DNA of 64,000 bases from Skermanella mucosa. Its GTDB lineage: Bacteria; Pseudomonadota; Alphaproteobacteria; Azospirillales; Azospirillaceae. Positions 63,392 through 64,000 of this stretch are shown piece by piece (positions within the stretch are counted from its first letter, which is position 1; the number at the start of each line of letters is the position of its first letter). The position numbers and the translations under genes are program-made. The notes beneath the pieces were generated by a model. It was given only the letters and a program-made list of their open reading frames with translations, was not told the origin of the DNA and did no database searches. The stretch covers positions 1 through 64,000 of the forward strand of contig NZ_CP086106.1 in NCBI RefSeq assembly GCF_016765655.2. Reading direction: 5' to 3'.

Positions 63392-63568
63392 ATGCCCGCT
63401 CACCATCACTCCAAGGTCCTGATCATCGGCGCCGGCCCGGCCGGCTACACCGCCGCGATCTATGCCGCCCGCGCCAACCTGAAGCCGATCCTGGTGCAGG
63501 GGCTTCAGCCGGGTGGCCAGCTCACGATCACGACCGACGTAGAGAAATACATGACCCCTGCTTGGTAG
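63392..63568 (+). pseudogene. trxB: Truncated 5' end of thioredoxin reductase gene
   Basis: The first 50 or so codons encode the start of thioredoxin reductase: [20 protein letters not shown] with the FAD-binding GxGxxG motif, then [19 protein letters not shown] and TITTDVEKY. The frame then leaves the family pattern (MTPAW) and ends at a TAG at 63566-63568 followed directly by a second TAG. Codons are GC-rich like the rest of the window (third-position GC in about 47 of 54 codons counted by hand up to the break). A second, complete-looking trxB start follows at 63705. This copy is interpreted as the native 5' end cut by an insertion. Confidence 0.88.
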
Positions 63569-63704
63569 TAGCAGCATGTCATGCTGGTTTTCTGCTCGAT
63601 GCTACCGCTCGGTAGTAGTTGCGTATCGTGAGCTTCAGTCGTAGCGTTGAAGCGCTGCATCCTTGCCGCCATTAGCGCAGCAAAACTTGTAACCGGTGAA
63701 CCGA
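63546..63704. other. Non-coding left part of a putative insertion in trxB
   Basis: From about 63546, where trxB similarity ends, to the second trxB ATG lie about 160 bases with no gene. Two TAG codons open it. It holds CAGCATG-T-CATGCTG (63572-63586), the direct repeat GGTAGTAG (63564-63571 and 63611-63618), and the hairpin CTACC-GCTC-GGTAG (63602-63615). Composition is AT-richer than the surrounding chromosome. No integrase or transposase can be encoded in this space. It could be an element end, a remnant, or a small structured RNA element carrying a promoter for the second trxB start. Confidence 0.65.
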
Positions 63705-64000
63705 ATGTCGAACATACATCAGTCAAAAATCCTTATCATCGGCTCCGGCCCTGCAGGTTACACTGCAGCCATTTATGCAAGTCGTGCCAATTTAGAACCC
63801 ATCATAGTTCAGGGCTTGCAACCAGGTGGCCAGCTTACGATTACAACCGAAGTCGAGAATTTTAGTGGCCATTCACAACCTATAATGGGTCCTTGGTTGA
63901 TGGAACAGATGCAGAAGCAGGCGGAGAACGTCGGCGCACGGCTCATCTACGACGTCATCACAGAGGTTGATCTCGCGACACAGCCATTTCGGGCCAAGGG
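63705..64000 (+). CDS. trxB: Thioredoxin reductase with replaced, AT-richer 5' end (partial at window edge)
   Basis: TrxB is a FAD enzyme that reduces thioredoxin with NADPH. The frame runs from ATG 63705 to the window end (98 codons), so it is partial. It opens MSNIHQSKILIIGSGPAGYT, then [30 protein letters not shown], and continues GPWLMEQMQKQAENVGARL in TrxB fashion. Over 45 aligned residues it matches the truncated upstream copy at 39, yet most of the codons differ. Third-position GC is about 27 of 64 codons up to Trp near 63896, then about 26 of 34 afterwards (hand counts). The 5' part is thus foreign in composition and the rest native. Confidence 0.85.
   Translation, partial: MSNIHQSKILIIGSGPAGYTAAIYASRANLEPIIVQGLQPGGQLTITTEVENFSGHSQPIMGPWLMEQMQKQAENVGARLIYDVITEVDLATQPFRAK

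Follow-up and report, generated by a model that had tools for sequence, protein, structure and literature searches.

A ~163.8-kb island in Skermanella mucosa splits trxB and carries a complete foreign trxB at its edge

The usual view is that islands leave conserved genes intact or repair only the end that they damage. Elements of the SXT/R391 type integrate within the 5' region of the conserved gene prfC and replace its 5' end together with its promoter. In Pseudomonas putida KT2440, as described in PMC10653934, tmk is interrupted by an island of 65 kb, and the essential kinase comes from PP_1964, the last gene of this island; tmk/dNMPK islands of this sort are known in several genera. Element Tn552-II was described with tgl, a homolog of its own target gene that may serve as rescue (PMC12486829). 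Strand-biased circularizing integrative elements (SE) are on record only in Gammaproteobacteria according to the account in PMC10214605. No report of trxB as a split-and-rescue insertion site was found in the open-licence PMC literature.

We propose here, with a probability of nearly nine in ten (about 0.88), that a ~163.8-kb island cut trxB in Skermanella mucosa and brought a complete foreign trxB as rescue, entering by site-specific recombination.

The split trxB gene and its island

The window (i.e. the whole stretch of DNA that was analysed) covers bases 1-64,000 of a 6.4-Mb contig and ends inside the island, both junctions of which are located on that one contig. Native trxB was severed at codon ~51-52 and its pieces lie ~163 kb apart on the same contig, separated by an island of ~163.8 kb (about 63,547 to 227,370). 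This anatomy of split gene and island is secure and comprises the following features (contig coordinates, identical to those of the window).

63392..63571, + strand: native trxB 5' fragment, host DNA to ~63546, followed by some island codons and the two TAG stops
63536..63550, + strand: left junction, GAGAAATA, compared with GAGAATTA at the right junction
63551..63704, + strand: left end of the island, the leader between native fragment and island trxB
63705-64,703, + strand: island trxB, complete, 332 aa (the window holds 63705..64000)
82,150-84,210: serine recombinase in the island
91,873-97,421, - strand: four-gene recombinase operon (296, 721, 679 and 169 aa), outside the window
~227,371-228,227, + strand: native trxB 3' remnant, beginning at residue 51, without the N-terminal part, outside the window

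The first trxB ORF starts with an ATG at 63392 and ends after 58 codons at tandem TAG codons (63566-63571). Island trxB, with its ATG at 63705, begins 137 bp past this stop, is co-directional and is the gene nearest to the native 5' fragment. Residues S7-E51 of the first copy were identical to the second start at 39 of 45 positions, and the second start was AT-richer (GC of 0.469 in its first 192 nt, vs 0.654 for the first copy). All these traits, namely the tandem starts, the early double stop, the near-identical peptides and the shift in composition, had correctly been recognised in a sequence-only reading of the window. The tandem starts and the GC drop where the second copy begins had there suggested a ~160-bp element, or the scar of a larger one, that gave trxB a recoded 5' end and nothing more, much as SXT/R391 elements do at prfC. 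This alternative is now extremely improbable, as the native 3' part is found at a distance of 163 kb and the whole length of the second copy is foreign. Instead of merging into GC-rich host trxB near 63897, the copy continues to 64703 with a GC content of 0.572; at the DNA level it is 68% identical to the native 3' part, for which GC amounted to 0.687. Likewise, the interior of only ~160 bp, taken for a satellite of minimal size, a scar left by a deletion or a small element, turned out to be the left edge of the ~163.8-kb island, which reaches past the window. Integration of a mobile element in the 5' part of trxB and TrxB coding of its own were rightly proposed; what is supplied, however, is a whole trxB and not a 5' end, the native 3' part staying as a remnant and the copy being complete and diverged.

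A whole-genome search with island TrxB as query matched five places. Besides the island copy itself (100%, residues 1-332), these were the remote native fragment (63% to the island copy, residues 51-332, matched at 227,364-228,224), the first native fragment (78% over residues 4-54, E=8.6e-21, so that its likeness to the second start is not due to chance) and two flavoprotein paralogs (30% and 24% identity). The island copy was the only full-length trxB found. Its predicted TrxB function is well supported, with 380.9 bits against model TIGR01292 (cut-off 343.45) over model positions 2-300 of 300. Since it is the cell's only TrxB, a deletion at this end of the island would leave the cell without thioredoxin reductase, which should favour persistence of the island. 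Gene trxB is dispensable in E. coli, so the rescue need not be vital.

Comparison with congeners delimited the insertion. The left flank up to 63546 displayed 95.6% and 96.3% identity to genomes G002 and G003, respectively, and the right flank 97.0% and 96.5%. The left-flank match ended at 1339 in G002 and at 1323 in G003, and the right flank resumed 3 nt further on in each (1342 and 1326); no loss of host DNA was visible in these two alignments. Gene trxB was uninterrupted in all four other genomes of the genus that were sampled, a check of relatives that the sequence-only reading had proposed. The junction repeat (GAGAAATA and GAGAATTA) is short, direct and imperfect, with 7/8 matches by eye and weaker likeness beyond. 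An assembly error was ruled out, as a single 6.4-Mb contig contains both junctions, the flanks agree with those of congeners and a second case occurs in family member G043 (see below). Duplication of the host gene was ruled out by the 63% identity to the native 3' part and by a separate tree position.

In a TrxB tree of 141 rows, island TrxB was placed outside the native clade of the host genus and apart from most family members, which answers the earlier question of whether the second copy groups with trxB of the host genus. It paired with TrxB of the G043 element (SH-aLRT of 94, the tool's mark being 95), both replacement proteins occupying long branches; as sisters, the two copies perhaps represent one mobile trxB lineage common to both elements. 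The closest relatives of island TrxB among the matches listed were alphaproteobacterial, with at most 69% identity. TrxB of another family member, G019, appeared in a loosely supported fork shared with the element pair. This protein (G019:C1:1891347-1892297) was located outside the tight clade of its genus. Genome G019 contained one full TrxB and weak paralogs (<=35%), and a search of this genome found no native trxB remnant; a completed replacement is a possible, unproven interpretation of this sequence.

The island displayed a GC content of 0.613, vs 0.689 for positions 1-63391 of the window. Among its cargo genes, one codes for a CusB/CusF-like copper efflux protein, three for P-type ATPases of the metal type and one for a DsbD-like protein, and numerous ORFs, on inspection, resemble parts of insertion sequences. 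Near the left end (67,344-69,655) occur three co-directional genes coding for a TIGR04255-family protein (4e-42), a weakly HTH-like protein and one without Pfam match; that they form a defence-like module is a guess. A perfect 44-nt palindrome with 22-nt arms and no loop (227,230-227,273) lies ~100 bp inside the right end. The leader before island trxB holds a 24-nt direct repeat (63560-63583 and 63607-63630, 75%) and a terminator-like hairpin at 63572-63586, the one found in the interval 63300-63760 vs 0.3 expected; no sigma-70-like promoter was found before island trxB in that interval.

A second split trxB gene and the survey of relatives

In the family, 80 of 82 genomes matched TrxB at E<=1e-60, and two matches each were obtained in the host (G000), G043, G073, G076 and G080. 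The split pattern was restricted to the host and G043 (2/82); the three others carry two full copies. The match in G054 comprised TrxB residues 83-314 only.

In G043, native residues 1-136 (95% to G016) are followed by a full element TrxB (69%), ~34 kb of DNA and native residues 130-319 (89%), the gene being broken directly upstream of the CATC (CxxC) active site. The element protein reached 387.8 bits with TIGR01292 (cut-off 343.45; model positions 2-300 of 300). The replacement trxB adjoins the native 5' fragment in the same orientation in both the host and G043. Next to the native 3' part of G043 were found a GmtY-like recombinase (5.7e-50), a GmtZ-like recombinase (2.3e-80), a weak GmtX (0.00075), a small protein and a RecD2-like helicase. 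The three Gmt matches (170.8, 270.6 and 19.1 bits) were all under their cut-offs (340, 600 and 40, respectively), and the helicase match was also below its curated cut-off.

Extremities inspected by eye displayed CCCCTGC and CCCCTAC in the ~163.8-kb island, and CCCCTAC and TCCCTTT in the G043 element; the end motif that they share may be a coincidence. Four CATACTG heptamers were noticed by eye at the trxB-side end of the G043 element (G043:C102, ~120,150-120,270) and one more near the other end; they are perhaps putative recombinase-binding repeats. Cargo of this element (G043:C102:87,959-119,170) includes protein-kinase-like, AAA-type ATPase-like and Hsp70-like genes, which are perhaps defence genes.

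Beyond the family, 366 of 385 genomes of the class (host included) matched TrxB at E<=1e-45, and at least three genomes besides the host gave two matches among the matches listed. None of the following was split: in both G228 and G317, two TrxBs of nearly full length lie on different contigs, and G335 holds one TrxB and a 36% paralog. No further split was found in 120 genomes of the phylum at a threshold of E<=1e-90, which short fragments would not reach. Among 95 related loci, with flanks of up to 10 kb, a second place was matched in two, both with 28-31% identity. A search for GmtY across 398 genomes of the phylum yielded four matches over the cut-off and one near it. Examination by eye of DNA upstream of those five loci, and of G018, did not reveal a split housekeeping gene with a copy.

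Island trxB might also be ordinary cargo, related for example to metal or redox stress and located at the edge by chance, in which case the insertion would be tolerable and the gene unshaped for rescue. The metal-resistance and DsbD-like genes of the island would suit such a role, chromosomal homologs are, as a matter of general knowledge, common for island genes, and the six GMT-type or related loci of relatives inspected by eye revealed no split gene accompanied by a copy. Yet, in both of the two islands, which have different recombinases, the copy is nearest to the broken gene and co-directional with it, and both were inserted in the gene of which they bring a homolog. We consider a mere passenger role unlikely.

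Recombinases and divergence at the insertion sites

Within the four-gene operon of the S. mucosa island, the 679-aa product matched Phage_integrase (3.4e-8) and the 296-aa product was XerC-like (5.3e-9); the latter seems N-terminally truncated, perhaps via an insertion sequence. Inspection of motifs by eye indicated that the HxxR histidine is absent from the second gene and kept in the third. The operon is located ~130 kb from the right junction, and later insertions could be the cause of this distance from the island end. Relatives of the four-gene operon were recorded in G009 and in Cupriavidus metallidurans pMOL28, with a partial one on a Microvirga plasmid. The operon of G009 (G009:C1:635963-642108, minus strand) consists of four genes, three of them recombinase-like, coding for 437, 757, 701 and 162 aa. 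A search of the genomes' contigs returned no relatives of the 679-aa recombinase.

According to the rescue model preferred here, the island, or a smaller ancestor since enlarged by insertion sequences and metal-resistance cargo, would have entered by site-specific recombination, with element-encoded tyrosine recombinases as the most likely agents. Gene trxB would be usable as a landing site because it is conserved, and an island carrying its own TrxB would avoid the cost of breaking it. A weaker component of the model, with about even odds, is that the replacement gene is altered at the residues matching the insertion site, so that the recombinase would spare it.

For the latter component, each replacement TrxB was compared with 129 distinct others (139 before merging of identical rows) in 15-residue windows across residues 1-308, the C-terminal tail being left out. 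The most deviant window of TrxB from the ~163.8-kb island was 49-63, which matches the insertion site of that island (VENFSGHSQPIMGPW vs consensus VENYPGFADPIQGPW); that of the G043 copy was 130-144, which likewise matches the insertion site of its element (NRGISWCAVCDGAFS vs consensus GFGVSACATCDGFFF; both consensuses from an alignment of 49 natives). None of the 129 others was as deviant at either site, and their own minimum fell on the first site in ten cases and on the second in two. TrxB of the ~163.8-kb island was mildly deviant at the G043 site too (rank 11 of 294), and the G043 copy was ordinary at the site of the ~163.8-kb island (rank 101 of 294). With the C-terminal tail included, the tail was more deviant and the own site of the ~163.8-kb island TrxB ranked second. 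When DNA was compared with a native gene, own sites ranked 6 of 325 for the ~163.8-kb island copy and 18 of 312 for G043. On these alignments, the own-site signal is mainly at the protein level.

The own-site divergence might instead stem from chance, from constraint relaxed along a long branch or from a relic of earlier recombination at these places, with a likelihood just short of one half. Long branches, the restriction to two cases, the modest DNA ranks and the ten other TrxBs with their own minimum at the first site all agree with such an origin. It is opposed by the position of the minimum, on the own site in both replacement proteins, by the ordinary state of the G043 copy at the site of the other element, and by the fact that no other TrxB reached either value and for just two of 129 the minimum fell on the second site. 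With relaxed constraint or chance as the alternatives, the odds are about even that the recombinase target was erased from the rescue gene, which would provide self-immunity.

Counting against the rescue model are an own-site pattern drawn from two cases, a leader with a hairpin in which no promoter was found, an operon far from the right junction whose first gene looks truncated, and the presence of a serine recombinase in the island as well. A broader proposal is that the two islands exemplify insert-and-rescue elements, in which a conserved gene is broken, the rescue is recoded at the recombinase target, loss becomes costly without a toxin and a second copy is excluded there, two recombinase systems having converged on trxB. 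This generalisation is tentative and we rate it somewhat below even odds.

Comparison with known systems

In the S. mucosa island, a conserved gene was split and a gene with the same predicted function was found at the island edge, which is the arrangement of target-plus-rescue islands. The likeness to tmk/dNMPK islands is close, since in these a large island also splits a conserved gene, an end gene restores the activity and tyrosine recombinases are present (PMC10653934). There, however, a phage-like kinase that differs in structure from the host enzyme takes over, and experiments demonstrated the rescue (PMC10653934). The islands described here target trxB and bring, as predicted substitute, a true homolog with alterations at the insertion site. 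A homolog of the target gene is likewise present in Tn552-II, but this is described as a small resistance transposon whose tgl retains an att copy at the matching position (PMC12486829), whereas in trxB islands the protein, within residues 1-308, diverges most at the matching site.

As to integration machinery, GInts and SEs share with the S. mucosa island a four-gene operon, with three recombinase-like genes and one for a small protein, as well as probable site-specific insertion and possibly short imperfect repeats (PMC5385486, PMC10214605). In GInts as described in PMC5385486, the degenerate recombinase is the third gene (GinC), the operon is located at the island 5' end and the junctions are direct imperfect repeats of 10-17 nt; in the trxB island, it is the second gene by motif and the operon is far from the end. 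The candidate repeat there matches at 7/8 positions and more weakly beyond. No copy of the target gene is described for GInts in the available text of PMC5385486. Plain GInt membership, suggested by gene count, is opposed by motif order, the second gene being the degenerate one. The order catalytic, degenerate, catalytic, small (motifs by eye) is that of SEs. Since the second gene is devoid of the HxxR histidine, the operon order appears closer to SE (PMC10214605) than to GInt (PMC5385486). A 6-bp SE-type footprint at the junctions fitted the ~163.8-kb island ambiguously.

The G043 element resembles GMT islands in that GmtY, GmtZ and a weak GmtX occur side by side (NCBIfam models); it differs in that all matches were under curated cut-offs and in its alphaproteobacterial host. 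With SXT/R391, trxB islands have in common an integration in the 5' part of a conserved gene and a restoration, presumed for trxB, of its function by the element, but a whole gene is supplied by the S. mucosa island and the native body is left as a remnant at 227,371.

In engineered cleave-and-rescue and home-and-rescue drives, rescue copies are recoded. Such drives likewise disrupt an essential gene and provide a copy for its rescue, yet they are nuclease-based and operate in insects (PMC7951863, PMC7968924), whereas trxB islands are natural and recombinase-based. Own-site divergence makes self-immunity of a rescue gene open to direct test and is a natural counterpart of engineered cleave-and-rescue designs.

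One conserved redox gene is thus far seen broken by two islands that differ in their recombinases, each of which supplies a whole substitute. This suggests that a foreign housekeeping gene can oust a native one in a single step, and that an island can make its own loss costly without a toxin. Target-plus-rescue islands are already known (tmk/dNMPK, and tgl of Tn552-II); trxB as target with a homologous substitute is a new variant.
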